The notes under the pieces are model-generated. The model searched no databases, was not told where the DNA came from, and saw only the letters and a list, made by a program, of their open reading frames with translations. The position numbers and the translations under genes are program-made. This document shows positions 11,741 to 56,788 of a stretch of 64,000 bases of DNA, piece by piece. Source of the DNA: Acidicapsa acidisoli (GTDB taxonomy: Bacteria > Acidobacteriota > Terriglobia > Terriglobales > Acidobacteriaceae); contig NZ_JAGSYI010000003.1 in NCBI RefSeq assembly GCF_025685625.1, forward strand, positions 868,001 to 932,000. Reading direction: 5' to 3'. How positions within the stretch are numbered: the stretch's first letter is position 1; every line of letters starts with the position of its first letter.

Positions 11741-12856
11741 CTACGCCAGCACCTCCGCGGGCGCGGTCCATGCGCGGCCCTGTGACTCGGCAACTCCGCG
11801 ATGAGTCAGAGTTCCCTTCCAGACATTCAACCCTTCGGCGAGGCCCGCATCGGCGCGCAGCGCCTCGGCTGCACCCTGGTTGGCAAGGCGCAACAGATAG
11901 GGGAAGGTAGCGTTGGTCAGCGCCAGCGTCGAGGTATGCGGCACCGCTCCCGGCATATTGGTCACGCAGTAATGAACCACGCCGTCCACAACATACGACG
12001 GATCGGAGTGAGACGTTGGACGCGCCGTTTCCACGCAGCCGCCCTGGTCGATAGCCACGTCCACAATGACTGCGCCCTTCTTCATCTTGCTCACCATTGC
12101 CTTGGTCACGATTTTTGGAGCTGTAGCGCCCGGAATGAGCACTCCGCCGATCACCAGATCCGCTTCGCGGGTTGCGCGGCCGACGTTATAGCTGTTCGAA
12201 GCGAGCGTGTGCAGCCGCCCGACAAAAATATCATCCAGCTCGCGCAGGCGGTTCAGGCTGACATCCACCAGCGTCACATGCGCGCCCATGCCCACTGCAA
12301 TTTTAGCCGCATTGGTGCCGACGATTCCGCCGCCGATGATGCAGACGTTCGCGGGAGGCACACCCGGTACGCCGCCGAGCAGAATACCGCGTCCGCCCTT
12401 TTCTTTTTCGAGATAGGATGCGCCTACCTGCACACTCATCCGGCCAGCGACTTCGCTCATGGGAGTCAGCAATGGCAGCGTGTTCGCGCGGTCTCGCACT
12501 GTTTCATAGGCAATTCCGATCACCTTGGACGCAAGTAGAGCATCGGTGAGGCCAGGCAGCGGAGCAAGGTGGAGATAGGTGAACAGCACGAGCCCTTCGC
12601 GGAAGAAGACGTATTCGCTTTCGACCGGCTCCTTCACCTTTACGATCGTCTCGGCATTGGCCCAGACGTGCCCGGCTTCGCCTACGATCTCCGCCCCGGC
12701 TTCCTGATATTCATGGTCCGGAAAACCCGATTGCGCACCCGCATGTGTCTCGACCAGCACAGTATGCCCCGCTTCGACAAGCGCCTTTGCGCCTGCCGGA
12801 GTTACGCCTACGCGTGCTTCGTGATCCTTAATTTCTTTCGGTACTCCAATAATCAT
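11741..12856 (-). CDS. ald: Alanine dehydrogenase
   Basis: It catalyses NAD-dependent interconversion of L-alanine with pyruvate and ammonia in the cytoplasm. The 371-residue length and landmarks fit the family: N-terminal [20 protein letters not shown], the substrate-site block [11 protein letters not shown], the glycine-rich NAD fold [25 protein letters not shown] and the C-terminal [19 protein letters not shown]. The frame remains open 17 codons upstream, but the ATG at 12856 is chosen because GGAGA lies 8 bases before it and the protein then starts exactly where homologues do. It is probably transcribed alone: 216 bp separate it from the orphan gene upstream on the same strand. Confidence 0.96.
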
Positions 12857-13072
12857 CCAACAATCTCCATATTCCAGGTCCTGCGTTTTTCTCGCACTGG
12901 CTACCATTGTAGATGCCGGACCACTCTTCTAGGTGCGACTCCAACCCCACCATCGGTTTGCCGCTGCCTCCGACAAAAAATCGGGCAGTAGGTCAGTTTA
13001 GAATTCACAGACCGAACCAGCGTTGAAGTAACGCGTCAATTTCGGTGAAACCGACCACACGACCGCGAGTCG

Positions 13073-13468
13073 CTATGTTTCGAGACGTTCAGCGCATTCG
13101 AGTAGCTGCTCAGGAAGACAGCCGAAGTTGCTGGCAACGTCAGGGCTGGTAACCGTATCGTGCAAAGCCTCGCCCATCTTCGCCAGTACGTCATGGAAAT
13201 CATCAGGCAAGTCTTGATCTGACCAATGATGCTCCCCGTCGTCGGAACAGAAGAATAGGTCAGCCGCCCAACAGTTTGCGCTCGTCCGCCCTTCGCCGCT
13301 GAGGTATTGAAGCAGTTCCACAAGGCTGTTCTTCAAGGCTAGCAAGTTGACAGGACTCGTGCCCACGTCGTTGTGGACGCGGAGCACGAGGGGCTTCAAC
13401 TCTTGCAACACTGCTTCCCCACCACGAGTCCTAGCGACGGAACTCCAAACCTGCTCAAAGTCCTTCAT
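13073..13468 (-). CDS. Orphan 131-residue acidic protein
   Basis: This is an unrecognised cytoplasmic protein. It is acidic, without signal peptide or membrane helix. A predicted helical N-terminal half (VLQELKPLVLRVHNDVG, LLALKNSLVELLQYLSGEGR) is followed by a W/C-containing segment (CWAADLFFCSDDGEHHW) and a helical tail. A purine-rich AGAGAGAAG precedes the ATG. The size and acidity resemble immunity-type proteins, but no toxin partner is adjacent, so that is only a guess. Its composition is less GC-biased than the flanking conserved genes, and the Hsp70 remnant begins about 160 bp upstream of its start. Confidence 0.6.
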   Translation of the reverse strand: MKDFEQVWSSVARTRGGEAVLQELKPLVLRVHNDVGTSPVNLLALKNSLVELLQYLSGEGRTSANCWAADLFFCSDDGEHHWSDQDLPDDFHDVLAKMGEALHDTVTSPDVASNFGCLPEQLLECAERLET

Positions 13469-13628
13469 CTTCTCTCTCTGGAGCTATCTGAAACATATCA
13501 AGAAAAGAGTTCTGAGAGGATGACCGGCTATCCGAAAGCTACTGATCCAACCGTGTGGATTCAAACTGCCCCATGACCGAAAATCGCGGAAGGGCGATGC
13601 CGATCCTCAACCCGAGAAATACTGGGAA

Positions 13629-13760
13629 AAACGGCAATCGACCAAATCCCTGCATTCGTAAGCCATAGCATCCGCGATCAGGATCGACTTCGGCACCGCC
13701 AACGAATCTGTCGCGCTGGCCGATCGCGGCCAGCGCGAGCTGGTTTCTTTCACCCTCTAG
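13629..13760 (+). pseudogene. Decayed 5' fragment of an Hsp70-family gene
   Basis: Bases 13632-13751 align without gaps to 15710-15829, the beginning of the intact Hsp70 gene; my hand count is about 92 identities in 120. In the matching frame it reads RQSTKSLHS, a TAA stop at 13656-13658 where the intact gene has a Gln codon, then AIASAIRIDFGTANESVALA, clearly the phosphate-1 motif of the neighbour (IGIDFGTTNSSVALA). The start codon is lost (AAA replaces ATG, with a one-base indel just before). Weaker similarity extends upstream to about 13595. Similarity stops at 13753, where the stop codon of the PNGase A-like gene begins on the other strand. Confidence 0.88.
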
Positions 13761-15493
13761 AAGAAATGCGGCTTGCACTCCTTCTGGTCGGCGACTCCGG
13801 TAAGTTCATTGTTGGCCGCGGTAAGTGTACGGCTGTAGCACCCGCCCAGCGAGTCCTGATAGATATACGTCTGCTTGCTGGTTTGGCCGGAGTTAGGCCC
13901 GAGCGAGAAGCCGGTAGGCGAGGCCACGAACGTAGCCGTATCGCCCGAAGTCAGCACATTGCTGACATTCGAATGGAAGATAGGAAATCCCTCCAGTGTC
14001 TCGGTCTCATCCCGCAGAAAATTCTGCCCGACGGTAGTGACCTGGCCGATATTGCCATTCGACTCCACTGTCTCGAGAAAGTTGATGTTGAAGGGATACG
14101 AGACATGCGTCTCCTTGGCCGTAACCAGGAAACCTGCCTGCGTCGTTGTCTTCGCATTCACGGTCGAGGTTTGCACCACGCCCTGACCGAATGTCGTGGC
14201 GGAGGAGGTGACGGTCTGCGCATTGCTGAAGTTCACCTTCTCATCGATCTTCGTGCTCACCCGTCCATGCGAAGTATTCACCCAGCCGGAGATGGTAAAG
14301 TCTTGTGCGCTGGTCACAGTCACTTCGCCCCCGCCATTGCCGCTGGCATCGAAGACAACGTTATTCACCACCACCGGATTCGGGGCGGTCAGCGTGTTTT
14401 CCGTCACCTCGCCCGTTACCTTCTTGCTTCCGTGATCCTCATACAACACCAAGGTAGCCACGGTGCTGAAGAATTGGAAAGCGTTGTAGACGGTTACGCC
14501 GATCGTATGCGGTTGCCCATTGCTCAAGAGACCCGCGAAAGGCGTCAGATCCACGCGATAGGGCAGCAGGTTGAGCGTCTGCACGCCGGGAATCGGAATC
14601 CACAGGCCTGGGTCCACTCCGCCGGTGTAGATCCAGGGAAAGACCGGCGCAACTCCAGCGGGCGTGCCGTCGATGCTTATATTCACCTGGCGAAAATCCG
14701 TGTTGCCGCAGTCGCCCACATCGCTCGCAACACTGTTCGGCAAGCAGAGAAACCACTGCTCTTCCTGATTCTGGCTCTGCGCGATCACGTCAAGATAGGC
14801 GCTCTCAACATTGGTCGGCAGGGTAAAGGTCTCGGTGTACTCGGGGTTCGCGTTGTTGAGGATGACGCTGTCATTTCCATCCTGCGTCACAGGTAGCACC
14901 ACGTCGGCTGTGCGCGGCACCGGGTTGATAAAGTTTGCCGGGTAGAACTCCAGCTTGAAGGTGCCGAAGATAATCGAGTTCAGCCCATCTTCCCCGATGA
15001 TGTTGCCCAGGCTCGCGAAGCCGGCTTGCGGAGTCTTGAAGAGTGCGCTGTAGTCTGTCAGATCGCGCTCGACGTGCCAGGTATCCGTTAACTTCGCAAG
15101 GGGCTCGGCGGTTGTTCCGAAGTAGATATTCACATTGCCAAGGAAAAGCTGCCCGGTGCGGTCAAATTGCACGCCAGGCTGAATGGAAAAGTCTCCTGTG
15201 AAGACAACCTTCGCCCAGGGACCGGGGCATGCGGCCGGCGGCGTGTATGTGTAGGTTGGGTTATTGAAATTCTCGAAAGCCTGGTTGGCCAGCAGAGTCA
15301 CGACACAAGGCTTGGTGTTGGGCCGGGGCACGGCCGGATCGGCTGTGGCCTCAAGCGACGAGCCTAGCTGGAACTGGCTCGACGAGCTGGCTGCATTGTT
15401 GGTTTGAGAGTGAAGCGTGCTGGCCACAGCAAGGACTGAGATTGCAACAAGCAGGCGTCTCCGGGAGGGAGCCGTCTGGAGTCTTGATCGCAT
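13757..15493 (-). CDS. Secreted peptide-N-glycosidase A-like protein (PNGase A family)
   Basis: The 578-residue product has a signal peptide (about 1-30). From about residue 60 to 380 it shows the ordered blocks of eukaryotic-type PNGase A: KPCVVTLLANQAFENF, PWAKVVFTGDFSIQPGVQFDRTGQLFLG, a TAEP/WHVERDLTDYSALF block, FRQVNISIDGTPAG, FPWIYTGGVDPGLWIPI and YRVDLTPFAGLLSNGQPHTI. Enzymes of this family cleave the amide between N-glycan and asparagine, including core-fucosylated plant glycans, at acidic pH. The C-terminal half is a beta-rich domain (TGEVTENTLTAPNPVVVNN...). It sits between an Hsp70 remnant and the intact Hsp70 gene and is divergent from the latter. Function is inferred from block similarity; catalysis is unproven. 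Confidence 0.82.
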   Translation of the reverse strand: MRSRLQTAPSRRRLLVAISVLAVASTLHSQTNNAASSSSQFQLGSSLEATADPAVPRPNTKPCVVTLLANQAFENFNNPTYTYTPPAACPGPWAKVVFTGDFSIQPGVQFDRTGQLFLGNVNIYFGTTAEPLAKLTDTWHVERDLTDYSALFKTPQAGFASLGNIIGEDGLNSIIFGTFKLEFYPANFINPVPRTADVVLPVTQDGNDSVILNNANPEYTETFTLPTNVESAYLDVIAQSQNQEEQWFLCLPNSVASDVGDCGNTDFRQVNISIDGTPAGVAPVFPWIYTGGVDPGLWIPIPGVQTLNLLPYRVDLTPFAGLLSNGQPHTIGVTVYNAFQFFSTVATLVLYEDHGSKKVTGEVTENTLTAPNPVVVNNVVFDASGNGGGEVTVTSAQDFTISGWVNTSHGRVSTKIDEKVNFSNAQTVTSSATTFGQGVVQTSTVNAKTTTQAGFLVTAKETHVSYPFNINFLETVESNGNIGQVTTVGQNFLRDETETLEGFPIFHSNVSNVLTSGDTATFVASPTGFSLGPNSGQTSKQTYIYQDSLGGCYSRTLTAANNELTGVADQKECKPHFF

Positions 15494-15706
15494 AGTGATT
15501 TCCCTTCTGGTTGAATTTCGAGTGAGCCCCTTCGAACGTCGGGAAGAATAACTCGCCGCACGGAGCGCAGTCTATCTTTTTGAAAAAAACGCGCAACTCT
15601 GAATGCACAGATTGAAGTTCATCGTCATAATTCCGCGAGAAACGATCAAACATTGTCAGAATCGATTCGCGCGACAGTCGATCACAAATTGGGAAATAAT
15701 GGGGAA

Positions 15707-17050
15707 ATGCGGCAATCGACCAAATCCCTCCATGCTCAAGCCATCGCATCGCCTATCGGGATCGACTTCGGCACCACGAACAGCTCCGTGGCGCTCGCCC
15801 GTGGCGGCCAGATTGAGCTTGTCCGCTTCGCTCGGCGGAGTGGTGAAACCGAGTCCTTCCGCTCCGTCCTTTACCTCGAACGCGTCCGCCAGGACGGCCA
15901 TTTGCGCATCGGGAGCTGGACAGGACCCACGGCAATCGAACACTACCTGGATGCCGAGAAAAAGGGCCGGCTGATCCAGTCGCTGAAGAGCTACCTGAGC
16001 AGCAGCAACCTCACCGGCACCGAAATTCTTGGCCGGCACTTCAGCTTTGAGAACCTGATCTCGCGCATCCTGACAGATCTTCGCTTGAACGCGGAGCGCC
16101 AATTCGGAAGGGATATTCGTTACGCCATGGTCGGCCGCCCCGTGCGCTTCGTTGGCGCGGAATCCGCAGAGGACGATGCCTTTGCCGTCGGACGCCTGCA
16201 ACGCGCTTTTGAGTTTGCTGGTTTCGAAAAGGTCGAGTTCGCCATGGAGCCGGTCGCGGCGGCTTATGCCTACGAGTCGACGCTGGACCACGATGAGCTG
16301 ATCCTGATTGGCGACTTCGGCGGTGGTACGAGTGACTTTTCGCTGCTTCGTGTCGGCCCCGGAATTCGCAAGCGTGGCCGCAGTCCGCAGGATCTGCTGG
16401 GCAACAGCGGACTCGGACTCGCTGGAGACGCCTTTGATGCGCGTATCGTACGCAAGCTGGTTTCTCCGGCGCTTGGCGCGGGAACGCTGCTGCATCCGGC
16501 GAGCAAGATGCTCCCCGCTGTTCCGGCGTGGATTTACCTGAATCTGGAGCGATGGCACTATCTGTCCTTCCTGCGCACGCGCAATGTCACCGAGATCCTG
16601 AAGAGCGCCCGCGTCCGGGCGATGGAGCCGGATAAGATCGAGGCGCTGATTACGCTGGTGGATGAGGATCTTGGATTTCAGTTGCATCAGGCTGTGCAGC
16701 GACTCAAGTTCGAATTATCGAGCGCAGAGACGGCGGAGTTTCGGTTTGTCGACGGCACGCTGGAGTTGCGCAAGGCAGTGACTCGCGCCGAGTTTGAAAG
16801 CTGGATAGCCGATGACCTGGCTGCGATTGAAGGCTGCGTGGATTCGCTCTTCGACAGCTCCAGCGTTGGTTATGCGGACGTCGACCGAGTCTTTCTTACC
16901 GGCGGGACTTCGTTTGTGCCTGCTGTGCGCGGTATCTTTGAGCGGCGGTTTGGCGTGGACCGCGTTCGCAGCGGGAATGAGTTTACGTCTGTAGCTCGCG
17001 GACTGGCTTTGCGGGCGGAAGAGTCTCTGTCCGACGCACGCCATAGTTAG
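15707..17050 (+). CDS. Hsp70-family (YegD-like) chaperone ATPase
   Basis: The product of 447 residues covers little more than the actin-like ATPase domain of DnaK and lacks the usual long substrate-binding and lid regions, as in YegD-type proteins. Landmarks are phosphate-1 IGIDFGTTNSSVAL, YAMVGRPVRFVG, FAMEPVAAAYAYES, phosphate-2 LIGDFGGGTSDFSLL and VFLTGGTSFVPAVRGIFERRFG. I use the ATG at 15707 (GGGG just upstream); the frame is open 18 codons earlier. The role is probably ATP-dependent protein quality control or partner binding, unproven. Its last codons overlap by 4 bp those of the convergent CE15 gene. A decayed copy of its 5' end lies at 13629. Confidence 0.88.
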   Translation: MRQSTKSLHAQAIASPIGIDFGTTNSSVALARGGQIELVRFARRSGETESFRSVLYLERVRQDGHLRIGSWTGPTAIEHYLDAEKKGRLIQSLKSYLSSSNLTGTEILGRHFSFENLISRILTDLRLNAERQFGRDIRYAMVGRPVRFVGAESAEDDAFAVGRLQRAFEFAGFEKVEFAMEPVAAAYAYESTLDHDELILIGDFGGGTSDFSLLRVGPGIRKRGRSPQDLLGNSGLGLAGDAFDARIVRKLVSPALGAGTLLHPASKMLPAVPAWIYLNLERWHYLSFLRTRNVTEILKSARVRAMEPDKIEALITLVDEDLGFQLHQAVQRLKFELSSAETAEFRFVDGTLELRKAVTRAEFESWIADDLAAIEGCVDSLFDSSSVGYADVDRVFLTGGTSFVPAVRGIFERRFGVDRVRSGNEFTSVARGLALRAEESLSDARHS

Positions 17051-34067: not shown

Positions 34068-34150
34068 GATAGCTAGTCCGACAGTTCTTCGAGTAGAGTC
34101 ATTGAAATTGGTATCTCCCCAGGCGCTGTACGCAAGCCTTTTGCGGATCT

Positions 34151-34178
34151 GAAAATTGGACCTCTCCAATTTTCAGTC
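34151..34178. promoter_or_regulatory. 11-bp perfect palindrome before the NHL lipoprotein gene
   Basis: CTGAAAATTGG at 34151-34161 is the exact reverse complement of 34168-34178, with a 6-base loop. It ends 42 bases before the ATG. It could be an operator, an mRNA 5' stem or a weak terminator for upstream readthrough; no T-run follows on the plus strand. Confidence 0.5.
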
Positions 34179-34219: not shown

Positions 34220-37200
34220 ATGCCTAAGCTGTCTCTTCCGCTCCTATTTGTCGCAGTCGTGGTCGTCCTTTCCGGATGCTCTTCTTCCAATCACCCTTCC
34301 AGTCCAATGCCCCCAACTCTCCCATCGGCGTCCGCGCCAACGTTCTTGCCTATGGCGGGTTCCTATAACTCGGCCCAGTCCGTACAAATCATGGACGCAA
34401 CTTCGGGAGCAAAGATCTATTACACAACCGACGGAAGTACGCCGACGGCAAGTTCCACTCAGTACACTGCATCCATTCAAGTAAGCGCAACAGAGACGCT
34501 CAAAGCGATCGCCGTGGCTACGAACTATGACCCGTCGGCTGAAACGGACGCCGCCTACACAATCAACCATCCTGTGATGTACACGATCGCCGGGACTACC
34601 CAGTCCGGAGACTGCGGATCGCCAGCGGTGGGCCCCATGTTGGCAACCGCGTCGGAACTGGGCGTTCCGGGCGGGATCGCGGTAGATCCGGCGGGGGACG
34701 TTTACATTGCGGATTCCGGAGACAATTGCGTTCGTGAGATTTCGAAGGCTTCCGGAGTTCTCACGGCCATTGTGAACACTGCGAACGGTCTGACATTCCC
34801 AATGGGAATGTCTCTGGACAACTCAGGCAATCTCTACATTGCGGACTATTTCAACAACCTCATTCGAGAAGTCTCGGTTTCGAATGGCAGTCTCACCGTC
34901 GTGGCTGGCGGTGGCAGCGGTGACGATGGAGGTCCGGCAACCGGCGCACGGCTATCTTCTCCAGAAGATGTGGGAGTCGACGCTGCCGGCAACCTCTATA
35001 TCGCTGACTCAGGGGATAACCTGGTTCGCAAGGTAACAGCAGCCACTGGAATCATCACAACAGTTGCCGGAACCGGAACAAGCGGCTACTCCGGCGACGG
35101 CGGAGCAGCCACAAATGCCGAACTGAATTACCCGGCGGGAGTTGCGTTGGATAGTGCCGGCGATATTTTTATTGCCGACTACAACAACAACGTCGTCCGC
35201 GAGGTTTCCGCGAAGACTGGATTGATCAGCACCGTGGCCGGAAATGGATTTGGAGCCGGAAGCGGCAAGAAGGGATCAGGGACAGGCGGCTACGCGGGCG
35301 ACGGTGGAGCGGCCACCAGCGCCGAACTCTTCAACCCAGAGGGCGTTGCCGTTGATTCGGCGGGCAACCTCTACATCGCGGATCACGGAAACGGTGCGAT
35401 CCGTGAAGTATCCACGGCAGGAATTATCACAACCATCGCAGGGAATGGCACGAACGGATACAACGGATCAGGAGGATCAGATGGAAAGAATGAACTTAGC
35501 GGTCCGGAGAAAATTACCTTTGACAAGACAGGCAATCTATATATCGCAGATGCCGGAAACAATCTGGTTCGAGAAGTCATCTTTTATCCTTCTCTTCCCG
35601 GAAATGCTACGCCAACGCCCGTCATAACCCAGCCGTCGGGCACATTTTCCACAGTCGAAGGGACTGGAATTACCGATTCAAATGCAGCAGCGCAGATCTA
35701 TTACACAACGGATGGCTCGATACCTACATCGACATCCACCGTTTACTCAGGTGGTATCTTGATCGACTCAAGTGCGACCCTGCAAGCGATTGCGCTGGCT
35801 CCTGGTTATTCCCAGAGTCAGATAGCTTCGGCGGTTTACACGAGTACTGTACCTCCCAACGCGACCCCGACCTTTTCGCCACCTGGCGGAACCTATGCCT
35901 CGCCGCAGACGGTCACTATTTGTTGCGCAGATAATCGGTTCACCGTTCTTTTCTACACAATCGACGGCTCACCACCGTCATCTTCGACCACTTCCGCGCG
36001 CTATGACGACGCCATTATCGTGGGGGCCAATGAGACTTTGAGTGCCCAAGTGGGCTCCGCGAATGCCCCTCCCAGCGCGGTGGCCACGGCTTCCTACATC
36101 ATCACAACGCCAGCCAGTCAGCTGATTTATACCGTCGCAGGCAATAGGGCGGAGGGCTATAGCGGAGACGGAGGCAATCCGCTCGCCGCAACTTTCAACA
36201 ACCCGGGATCCGTCGCATTGGATGGAGCGGGCAATCTTTACGTCGCGGATAGCGGAAATAATGTGATCCGGGAGATTTCCGCCAGCACGGGCCTGATTAC
36301 CACCATCGCAGGAAGCGGCCATTCAGGCTATACCGGAGACGGAGGGCCGGCGATCGATGCGACACTCTCTACGCCTTTGGACATTGCAATCGACAGCGCC
36401 GGCGACATTTACATTGCAGACTCCGGAAACAACGTCATTCGACGCATTTCCGCAAGCAACGGCATGATCTCTACAGTCGCGGGCACAGGTCACGCCGGTT
36501 TCTCTGGCGATGGCGCTGCCGCAACCTTGGCTGAACTCAATTCCCCGACAGGTATTGCGCTAGACAAGGTAGGAAACCTTTTTATCGCCGATAGCTCCAA
36601 CTTGAGGGTCCGCGAAGTATCCGCGACGACAGGGGTGATTAAAACAGTGGCTGGAGGCGGGTCAGGAGGCGATGGCGGACTGGCGACCGCTGCCAGCCTC
36701 ACCGCTGCCAGTCGAGTCGCATTCGACAGCACCGGAAATCTGTATATCGCGTGCGCCTTCACGATCGAGCAGGTCTCCGCAAAGACTGGCGTAATCAATG
36801 CAGTGGCGGGATTCAATCCACCCGAAAACGCTATGTACTTTTTCCCGGTTCTCGGCGACGGCGGTCCAGCCACGTCGGGCTTTCTAGCAACTCCGGTGGG
36901 AATGCTATTCGACTCCATGGACAATTTGTACATCGCCAACGCTGGAAACAACCGCATTCGAGAGGTTTTTGCAACGACGGGCATCATCACAACAATTGCG
37001 GGCTCGGACCTGGTCGGCGCAAGCGGAGACGGAGGACCGGCAACGAATGCGGCACTCAACGGCCCCACCGGCATCGTCATGGACAAGCACGGAAGTCTTT
37101 ACATTGCCGACGTCGGGAATATGGTGGTCCGCGAAGTGGTGGGCTATGCCAAACCCTCAACAGCGCTCACAGCAACGCCTGAAATCACACCTGCGGGAGG

Positions 37201-37504
37201 GACTTTTGCCACCCCACCGATTGTTACCATCAGCGACAGCACACCAGGCTCGGCCATTTACTTCACGCTCGACGGGACTGCTCCTGGTACTTCTTCGCCA
37301 ATGTACAGCGGTCCAGTGCAAGTGCCCTCAACAGCGTCGCTGCGAGCGATTGCGATAGCACCGGGCTACCTATGGAGTTCAGAAGCATCGGCCGCGTTCA
37401 CCGTGACTTCCGCGCCGTCGGCCAGTTCGCCAATCACTGGCACGGTGTCCAACGGGTACAAGGGGGCTGATTCAATCGGACAAGCCCAGCAAAAACGAGA
37501 GTAG
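34220..37504 (+). CDS. NHL-repeat/chitobiase-like-domain lipoprotein
   Basis: The 1094-residue protein begins with a lipoprotein signal (VVVVLSGC, lipid-attached C20) and a Ser/Pro linker. Chitobiase/beta-hexosaminidase C-terminal-type domains occur at about 40-115, 466-543, 549-630 and 987-1063, each with IYYTTDGSTPT or a variant. Between them lie two NHL beta-propeller-like arrays (about 120-455 and 635-980) built of 50-60 residue units of the form GYSGDGGxAT...PxGVAxDSAGNLYIAD...NNxVREVS...GIITTVAG. These proteins are abundant in Acidobacteria and probably bind partners or polysaccharides at the cell surface; no enzyme motif is present. The bidirectional terminator at 37518 follows. Confidence 0.88.
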   Translation: MPKLSLPLLFVAVVVVLSGCSSSNHPSSPMPPTLPSASAPTFLPMAGSYNSAQSVQIMDATSGAKIYYTTDGSTPTASSTQYTASIQVSATETLKAIAVATNYDPSAETDAAYTINHPVMYTIAGTTQSGDCGSPAVGPMLATASELGVPGGIAVDPAGDVYIADSGDNCVREISKASGVLTAIVNTANGLTFPMGMSLDNSGNLYIADYFNNLIREVSVSNGSLTVVAGGGSGDDGGPATGARLSSPEDVGVDAAGNLYIADSGDNLVRKVTAATGIITTVAGTGTSGYSGDGGAATNAELNYPAGVALDSAGDIFIADYNNNVVREVSAKTGLISTVAGNGFGAGSGKKGSGTGGYAGDGGAATSAELFNPEGVAVDSAGNLYIADHGNGAIREVSTAGIITTIAGNGTNGYNGSGGSDGKNELSGPEKITFDKTGNLYIADAGNNLVREVIFYPSLPGNATPTPVITQPSGTFSTVEGTGITDSNAAAQIYYTTDGSIPTSTSTVYSGGILIDSSATLQAIALAPGYSQSQIASAVYTSTVPPNATPTFSPPGGTYASPQTVTICCADNRFTVLFYTIDGSPPSSSTTSARYDDAIIVGANETLSAQVGSANAPPSAVATASYIITTPASQLIYTVAGNRAEGYSGDGGNPLAATFNNPGSVALDGAGNLYVADSGNNVIREISASTGLITTIAGSGHSGYTGDGGPAIDATLSTPLDIAIDSAGDIYIADSGNNVIRRISASNGMISTVAGTGHAGFSGDGAAATLAELNSPTGIALDKVGNLFIADSSNLRVREVSATTGVIKTVAGGGSGGDGGLATAASLTAASRVAFDSTGNLYIACAFTIEQVSAKTGVINAVAGFNPPENAMYFFPVLGDGGPATSGFLATPVGMLFDSMDNLYIANAGNNRIREVFATTGIITTIAGSDLVGASGDGGPATNAALNGPTGIVMDKHGSLYIADVGNMVVREVVGYAKPSTALTATPEITPAGGTFATPPIVTISDSTPGSAIYFTLDGTAPGTSSPMYSGPVQVPSTASLRAIAIAPGYLWSSEASAAFTVTSAPSASSPITGTVSNGYKGADSIGQAQQKRE

Positions 37505-55534: not shown

Positions 55535-55600
55535 CCATCTTTCCCGTACGGGGAGGGTTCTTGCAAACCCTCCCCGTACTAGCCCAACTCAATCGAACTA

Positions 55601-56788
55601 CTAAGCGATAATCTCCGAGATGGCCCCGGCGCCGACTGTCCTGCCGCCTTCGCGGATGGCGAAACGCAGGCCCTTTTCCATCGCAACCGGCGTGTGCAGC
55701 TCGATCTCCAGCTGGATATTGTCGCCCGGCATCACCATCTCCGTACCGGCAGGAAGCTTCGCCGTGCCCGTCACGTCCGTGGTGCGGAAGTAGAACTGGG
55801 GACGGTAGCCGTTGAAGAACGGCGTATGACGGCCGCCTTCTTCCTTGCTCAGTACGTAAACCTCGCCCTTGAACTTGGTGTGCGGCGTAATCGAGCCGGT
55901 CTTGGCCAGAACCATGCCGCGCTCCACGTCGTCCTTGGCGATGCCGCGCAGCAGCAGGCCGGCGTTATCGCCCGCCAGACCTTCGTCCAGCTGCTTCTTG
56001 AACATTTCCACGCCGGTCACAACCGTCTTGCGCGTGTCGCGGAAGCCGACGATTTCAACTTCCTCGCCTACCTTCACCTTGCCGCGCTCGATGCGGCCCG
56101 TAACAACCGTGCCGCGTCCGGAGATCGAGAAGATATCTTCGATCGGCATCAGGAAGGGTAGGTCGACCATGCGGTCCGGCTGCGGAACGTACTTGTCGAC
56201 CGCATCCATCAGCTCGTCAATCTTGGCTTCCCACTGCGCTTCGCCGTTCAAAGCTCCAAGTGCCGAGCCGCGGATGACCGGAACGTCGTCGCCCGGGAAC
56301 TGATACTTGGAGAGCAGCTCGCGCACTTCCATTTCCACTAGCTCCACCAGCTCTTCGTCCTCGACCGCGTCGCACTTGTTCAGAAACACCACCAGTGAAG
56401 GTACGCCGACCTGGCGGGCCAGAAGCACGTGCTCCTTGGTCTGGGGCATCGGGCCGTCGGTGGCCGCAACCACCAGAATGCCGCCATCCATCTGCGCCGC
56501 GCCGGTGATCATGTTCTTGATGTAGTCGGCGTGGCCCGGGCAGTCGACGTGCGCGTAGTGACGGTTGGCCGTCTCATACTCCACGTGCGCTGTCGCGATC
56601 GTGATGCCCCGCTCCCGCTCTTCCGGCGCGTTGTCAATCGTGTCGAACGAACGGAACTGGATCTTCGGATTGTGCTTCGACAATACCTTCGTGATCGCCG
56701 CCGTCAACGTCGTCTTTCCGTGATCGATATGCCCGATCGTTCCCACGTTCACGTGCGGCTTAGACCGGTCAAATTTTTCCTTCGCCAT
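55601..56788 (-). CDS. tuf: Elongation factor Tu
   Basis: EF-Tu delivers aminoacyl-tRNA to the ribosome. The 395 residues have G1 [11 protein letters not shown], the switch I block [39 protein letters not shown] and SALGALNGE, plus the two beta-barrel domains ending [17 protein letters not shown] single copy is seen here; a second may exist elsewhere. Confidence 0.99.

Follow-up and report, generated by a model that had tools for sequence, protein, structure and literature searches.

Partial copies of a resident gene beside an added gene are known from insertion joints. Homology-facilitated illegitimate recombination (HFIR) combines a homologous join at one end with an illegitimate join at the other (PMC3240628), and merodiploids are described as arising by transformation (PMC3784515). 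Here we analyze a locus of Acidicapsa acidisoli (own genome, G000, 7.1 Mb) within a window of 64,000 nt (contig NZ_JAGSYI010000003.1, G000:C3:868001-932000), in which the truncated 5' end of an Hsp70-family gene, hereafter the relic, stands behind a peptide:N-glycanase (PNGase) A-like gene that was probably acquired. As at the described HFIR or transformation-made joints, a partial direct copy of a resident gene lies beside the added gene, with one copy degenerate and the other intact. What sets this locus apart is the perfect hairpin that the copy carries just behind the added gene, and any mechanism of its formation is a proposal. All coordinates are positions in the window.

Other systems are also close to this locus. 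U-poor ("I-shaped") terminators are described as common in GC-rich bacteria and account for 78% of the highly structured transcript ends in Methylosinus sporium (PMC12403871). The hairpin of the relic shares with them a strong GC-rich stem soon after a stop codon and the lack of a U-tract, but whereas I-shaped terminators were seen as transcript ends, it is known from sequence alone, derives from coding DNA and has its parent-type gene 2 kb away. Multi-base changes that complete an inverted repeat, as proposed here, have been described for RNA hairpins formed by template switching (PMC8794818); that description concerns the histories of RNA genes, whereas here a bacterial gene relic is involved, probably with at least two steps. 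Finally, acidobacterial PNGase A-like enzymes (PNGase H+), for example from Terriglobus roseus, have been made and tested (PMC4231336, PMC7348039). The present protein is like them in its PNGase A family and acidobacterial host, and its release of N-glycans is a prediction. A limited search of the open literature (titles and openings of abstracts) found no case of a gene relic turned terminator.

A truncated Hsp70-family 5' end behind the PNGase gene

The genes of the locus follow each other in the order aldA (-), an open reading frame (ORF) of 131 aa (-), the relic, the PNGase A-like gene (-), the Hsp70-family gene (+) and a glucuronyl-esterase-like gene (-). The relic (13614-13754, + strand, coding-derived part 13629-13754) and the intact gene (15707-17050, + strand) contain direct copies at 13624-13744 and 15702-15822, which are 79% identical over 121 nt with a spacing of 2078 and form the only direct repeat of at least 60 nt reported by the repeat search of the window. 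A whole-genome search with a 287-nt query from the relic region led to the intact gene with an E-value of 5.0e-23 (78% over ~130 nt), as did a 166-nt query (E 2.9e-23). Counted from the start codon of the intact gene (ATG, 15707-15709), 94 of 126 nt are identical (75%) without any gap, and the similarity extends back to ~13614, with a one-base gap, and forward to ~13751-13754. A first-pass annotation of this DNA had already described a gapless copy of the Hsp70 5' end and a PNGase gene enclosed by two direct copies, and both statements were borne out, the similarity being far from chance. It had also let the fragment stop exactly where the PNGase gene ends; the fragment does end beside this gene, but the similarity fades 2-6 nt ahead of the PNGase stop codon (13757-13759).

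The decay of the copy is evident. It reads AAA where the intact gene starts with ATG and carries TAA in frame at 13659-13661, in agreement with the annotation, and the nucleotide-binding motif GIDFGTTNSS of the intact gene reads RIDFGTANES, with conserved residues replaced. Significant similarity to a parent-type gene together with the lost start, the in-frame stop and the truncation identifies the relic as a pseudogene.

The intact gene, which had been called Hsp70, is a member of the Hsp70 family (PF00012, 96.6 bits versus a gathering score of 20.6) but not a DnaK. It reaches 95 bits where the DnaK cut-off is 822 (TIGR02350), and with ~447 aa its match ends within the nucleotide-binding part. 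DnaK-type Hsp70 proteins have about 600 aa and a C-terminal substrate-binding domain. The best NCBIfam match is PRK11678, the model of E. coli YegD (450 positions, 446-aa query), yet the score stays below the equivalog cut-off (215 versus 331 bits), so that the gene is YegD-like and not a YegD member by that test. By these domain matches it encodes a short YegD-like Hsp70-family protein without substrate-binding domain. A strong orthologue was found in 9 of 61 genomes (own included, E-value-sorted list), one in each, the own relic aside. As a side observation, the YegD-like gene at G155:C1:3532644-3533904 consists of two matches in separate open frames and is possibly broken.

A comparison with the orthologues of G004, G006, G011, G002, G001 and G185 bears on the age of the copy. 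The N-terminal stretch STKSLH is common to the relic and the intact copy and was not seen in these six orthologues (by eye). Within a 45-nt core the relic is 76% identical to the intact copy versus 60-69% to the six orthologues, and the intact copy is 78-80% identical to those of G006, G001 and G185, that is, as near or slightly nearer than to the relic, which is expected if the relic changes faster. In our reading, relic and intact copy are sisters, and the relic is younger than the split from the compared orthologues.

A perfect hairpin made of Hsp70-gene sequence

Overlooked in the first-pass annotation was a perfect hairpin within the relic at 13711-13738, which lies 18 nt past the PNGase stop codon and consists of a 12-bp stem and a 4-nt loop (TCGCGCTGGCCG-ATCG-CGGCCAGCGCGA, 12 of 12 pairs). 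The matching place of the intact gene provides 6 of 12 Watson-Crick pairs (hand count). Of the 28 positions, 8 differ between relic and intact gene; two of these belong to the loop, and the six that belong to the stem are all pair-making in the relic. An ancestral hairpin that was lost by the intact gene was rejected, as none of the six orthologues carries such a palindrome there (by eye). The segment 13711-13754 matches the collinear place of the intact gene at 29 of 44 positions, the best of 127,914 placements, itself aside, and we therefore take the hairpin as made of Hsp70-gene sequence. The last 23 nt of the relic (13732-13754) include GAGCTGGT, which the G004, G011 and G002 orthologues carry unchanged at the corresponding position (by eye). 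A repeated palindrome was rejected as well: allowing up to three mismatches, the 28-nt hairpin has a single copy in the 7.1 Mb and is thus no dispersed repeat.

Such a stem is hardly reached by drift. Simulations that started from the intact sequence never produced this exact 12-bp stem, whether 16 or 32 substitutions were applied (0 of 200,000 runs), and drift to 32 differences gave a 12-bp stem anywhere in 0 of 20,001 runs and one of at least 10 bp in 0.15%. As either copy may have changed at several stem positions, a conservative starting ancestor was also used; even the most favourable one, with the pairing base at every uncertain stem position, led to the stem in only 0.023-0.035% of runs (200,000 for each setting). 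Provided that the intact copy is close to the ancestral sequence, the stem agrees with its right arm in the inner half and with its left arm in the outer half, which implies at least two steps. Perfect hairpins of at least 12 pairs (loop 3-8) occur at three places in the 64 kb, the relic hairpin among them, whereas 15 first-order random sequences gave a raw count of 0.07 on average, and the 71-nt stretch folds with z-scores of -2.5 (PNGase strand) and -2.8 versus -0.3 and -0.8 for the matching stretch of the intact gene.

The position of the hairpin points to a role at the 3' end of the PNGase transcript. It is no canonical (L-shaped) terminator, as the GC-rich 12-bp stem is followed by the tail CAGATTCGTT without a U-tract, but structurally it fits the U-poor type, with a strong stem 18 nt past the stop. 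A sample of 464 kb, composed of the window and 20 stretches of contig C1 with 330 ORFs, contained 12 perfect hairpins with a stem of at least 11 bp. Nine of them, the relic hairpin included, fall inside a limit of 80 nt past a stop codon, at distances of 12-65 nt, and one of these nine is then followed by five T in a row; the remaining three lie in a chosen ORF (one) and in other intergenic places (two). Of 20 PNGase genes of relatives, 10 have a perfect stem of at least 9 bp in the first 70 nt after the stop, versus 1.35% of 2,000 random stretches from the same loci. The hairpins in G155, G194 and G177 are built on GGCCCGG, a motif not present behind the own PNGase. From this habit of post-stop hairpins, the hairpins of the PNGase relatives and the frequency of U-poor terminators in GC-rich bacteria, it seems most likely that the relic was co-opted for the PNGase mRNA, as a putative U-poor terminator or as a hairpin that protects its 3' end.

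Several observations weigh against this interpretation. The hairpin was noticed in a scan rather than predicted. The tail on the PNGase strand has no U-tract. The terminator scan listed 13711-13738 on the + strand only, and its four sites in 3 kb do not exceed what shuffled sequences give (2.7 +/- 1.6). The other 10 of the 20 PNGase relatives have no stem of even 7 bp within 70 nt past the stop, and just 2 of 46 ORFs in the window are followed within 70 nt by a perfect stem of at least 8 bp. The fold z-score is modest, with 5 and 3 of 200 shuffles folding as well. As to the Hsp70 origin, the 28 nt of the hairpin alone reach a score of 20, which is not unique (5 of 127,946 placements, itself included), and the similarity past 13733 is weak on its own, with 13 of the last 23 nt of the relic identical to the intact gene. 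Furthermore, the pair-making C of GTC is also present in G006, G011 and G002 and is probably ancestral and lost by the intact copy; with at least one pair-making base ancestral, fewer than six changes would have built the stem.

Two other hairpins of the window were recorded. A perfect hairpin with a 14-bp stem at 55546-55579 follows the ORF 55601-56788 (- strand) at 21 nt from its stop codon and has the geometry of the relic hairpin. At 34149-34176, a perfect 12-bp palindrome with a 4-nt loop lies ~44 nt upstream of the long ORF 34220-37504 and is perhaps an operator or leader hairpin.

The site in relatives and the origin of the PNGase gene

The PNGase A-like gene (13757-15493, - strand) encodes 578 aa with a signal-peptide-like N-terminus (by eye) and scores 185.5 bits with PF12222 (gathering score 25.3). 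Including the own genome, it was found in 4 of 15 genomes of the genus and 60 of 200 genomes of the family. In a tree of 21 PNGases, G000 belongs to a group of eight sequences from three genera, which has full support and does not include G004; the position of G000 within this group lacks resolution. The protein is 73-75% identical to those of two g86 genomes and 63% to those of two other g86 genomes, compared to 62-63% for G001 and 44.5-46% for G004 of the own genus. The contrast to aldA is clear, which reaches 87-93% in four genomes of the genus and 76-78% in three g86 genomes, while G194 has only a piece at a contig end. As its clade mixes three genera, the PNGase gene was probably acquired; transfer, or old copies that were lost differently, would explain the pattern, and transfer is the simpler explanation.

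The site itself differs between relatives. In G004, the closest relative by the Hsp70-family protein (84%), aldA and the Hsp70-family gene are 208 bp apart, with neither PNGase gene nor relic between them; by aldA the identities are 93% for G001, 92% for G011 and 91% for G004. G006 and G011 have a 2.8-kb gene for a YncE-like phosphoesterase in between, the 3' end of which is also found upstream of the Hsp70-family gene at a contig end in G002, whereas in G001 this gene is 4.4 kb upstream. The gap beside aldA looks like a place of gene turnover. In the own genome the best copy of the YncE-like gene (73%) is located on another contig (G000:C1:2500188-2502794, L158), and neither the Hsp70-family gene nor the site left a detectable piece in the 19 kb around it, so that a relocated YncE-like phosphoesterase gene was rejected as the origin of the relic.

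The relic was not found in the other 14 assemblies of the genus, some of which are 84-88% complete, and the sole match there covers 32 nt inside the own orthologue of G004. A fragment without an adjacent Hsp70 gene, named as the counter-case in the first-pass annotation, was likewise not found in these 14 assemblies. A DNA search across the family, which scored two candidates per genome, gave matches in 20 of 398 genomes, own included, the other 19 over 21-86 nt only. Many of these short matches fall on the conserved nucleotide-binding motif or the GC-rich hairpin stretch, and a strongly decayed relic elsewhere is possible.

On the left side, the site adjoins the alanine dehydrogenase gene aldA (11741-12907, - strand), as it does in G004, G006 and G011. 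A 15-nt stretch at 12904-12918 (CCATTGTAGATGCCG) also occurs in the aldA-Hsp70 spacer of G004 (11 nt aligned, the rest by eye) and is taken as the point up to which ancestral sequence can still be recognised on the left of the added DNA. The 131-aa ORF between aldA and the relic (13073-13468, - strand) has no Pfam or NCBIfam match and, the own genome aside, turned up in one of 200 genomes of the family (G171, 61%). On the right side, the last ~24 nt of the spacer between the divergent PNGase and Hsp70-family genes (15494-15706) resemble the same place in G004. Together with the short match on the aldA side this is too little to fix the joints.

Two other routes by which the arrangement might have formed were considered. 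A joint arrival of PNGase gene and relic from a donor was rejected as far as seen, as the PNGase loci of G155, G194, G153, G107, G001 and G004 (12-18 kb) are without a YegD-like gene. A target-site duplication by a mobile element is disfavoured, since the genes between aldA and the Hsp70-family gene comprise the PNGase A-like gene and one without Pfam family, and no transposase. The usual target duplications are also far shorter than the ~130-150-nt repeat.

History of the locus and meaning

On balance we favour a history in which the PNGase gene joined the locus beside the Hsp70-family gene and left a truncated copy that now serves as a putative terminator hairpin. The gene would have settled in the gap adjoining aldA, and its arrival, or a duplication just before, would have left the second truncated 5' end directly behind the PNGase stop, for example by one homologous and one illegitimate join. 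It would have retained its coding end and not a 3' flank resembling those of its relatives. The hairpin that the dead copy now holds would keep transcription out of the 131-aa ORF and aldA, which lie in the same direction. Some of the multi-base steps could stem from template switches between inverted repeats that were still imperfect, and these steps would have been retained by selection for 3'-end formation. For the more specific proposal, that a few pair-making changes turned a dead coding fragment into a terminator for the neighbouring gene, which was newly acquired and had lost its own, we see the balance as even. The capture by recombination proposed in the annotation stands with regard to the probable acquisition, given the G004 site without either element, the absence of the relic from the other genus assemblies and the genera-mixing tree, while the mechanism is a proposal; taken together, the earlier observation is confirmed and its interpretation partly supported.

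Truncated copies at recombination joints are ordinary, and the relic could also be an unselected leftover of the duplication or insertion, with a functionless hairpin produced by template switching during replication. The lost start, the gained stop and the replaced nucleotide-binding residues fit such debris, and template switching is described as able to create or mend perfect stems (PMC8794818). We nevertheless consider this possible but rather unlikely, because the hairpin has the position typical of long perfect hairpins in the sampled part of the genome, at which half of the PNGase relatives also carry one, because one template switch would not suffice if the intact copy is near the ancestor, and because the 126 nt contain no indel at a dS of ~0.6. 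It is very unlikely that the PNGase gene brought the hairpin along as its native 3' flank and that 13711-13754 resembles the Hsp70-family gene by accident: the best collinear placement of this whole segment and the different sequence of the hairpins in G155, G194 and G177 speak against it, although relatives' PNGase genes carry hairpins in the same place and neither 13732-13754 (no significant match) nor 13711-13738 (not unique) points to the Hsp70-family gene when taken alone.

Another alternative, compatible with the terminator interpretation of the hairpin, is a long coexistence of two complete Hsp70-family genes, the first of which was truncated only recently, when the PNGase gene was inserted. 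The differences between relic and intact gene are distributed over codon positions 1/2/3 as 11/5/16, with an excess at third positions, and dN is ~0.18, which gives a Ka/Ks of 0.30 (bootstrap 0.11-0.67). In simulations of a copy that was neutral since its birth, equal branches yielded so few replacement changes in just 0.2-1.3% of runs and a pN/pS this low in 3-7%, and with 70% of the divergence on the relic these values fell to at most 0.1% and 0.5%. The simulations do fit, however, when the relic takes a smaller share of the divergence (9-38% and 21-49% with 30% on the relic). A coding phase of the relic, as suggested in the first-pass annotation, is therefore possible, and the Ka/Ks speaks weakly for it. 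For a once complete tandem gene, which had also been proposed there, we found no support: all nine of the 61 genomes with a strong orthologue have one each, and a protein search of the own genome gave no sign of a second copy in the middle or 3' region of the gene. We regard the old tandem pair as unlikely.

The origin of transcript-ending hairpins is seldom visible, because the source sequence is usually gone. At this locus the parent-type gene, the relic and the orthologues can be compared, and the changes that built the stem can therefore be listed and tested. If the favoured history is true, the birth of a terminator from coding DNA is readable base by base, since the parent-type gene survives 2 kb away. 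This suggests that an acquired gene that was cut off from its own 3' flank may gain a new one from host debris, and that scrap gene DNA may have become a new terminator in A. acidisoli.

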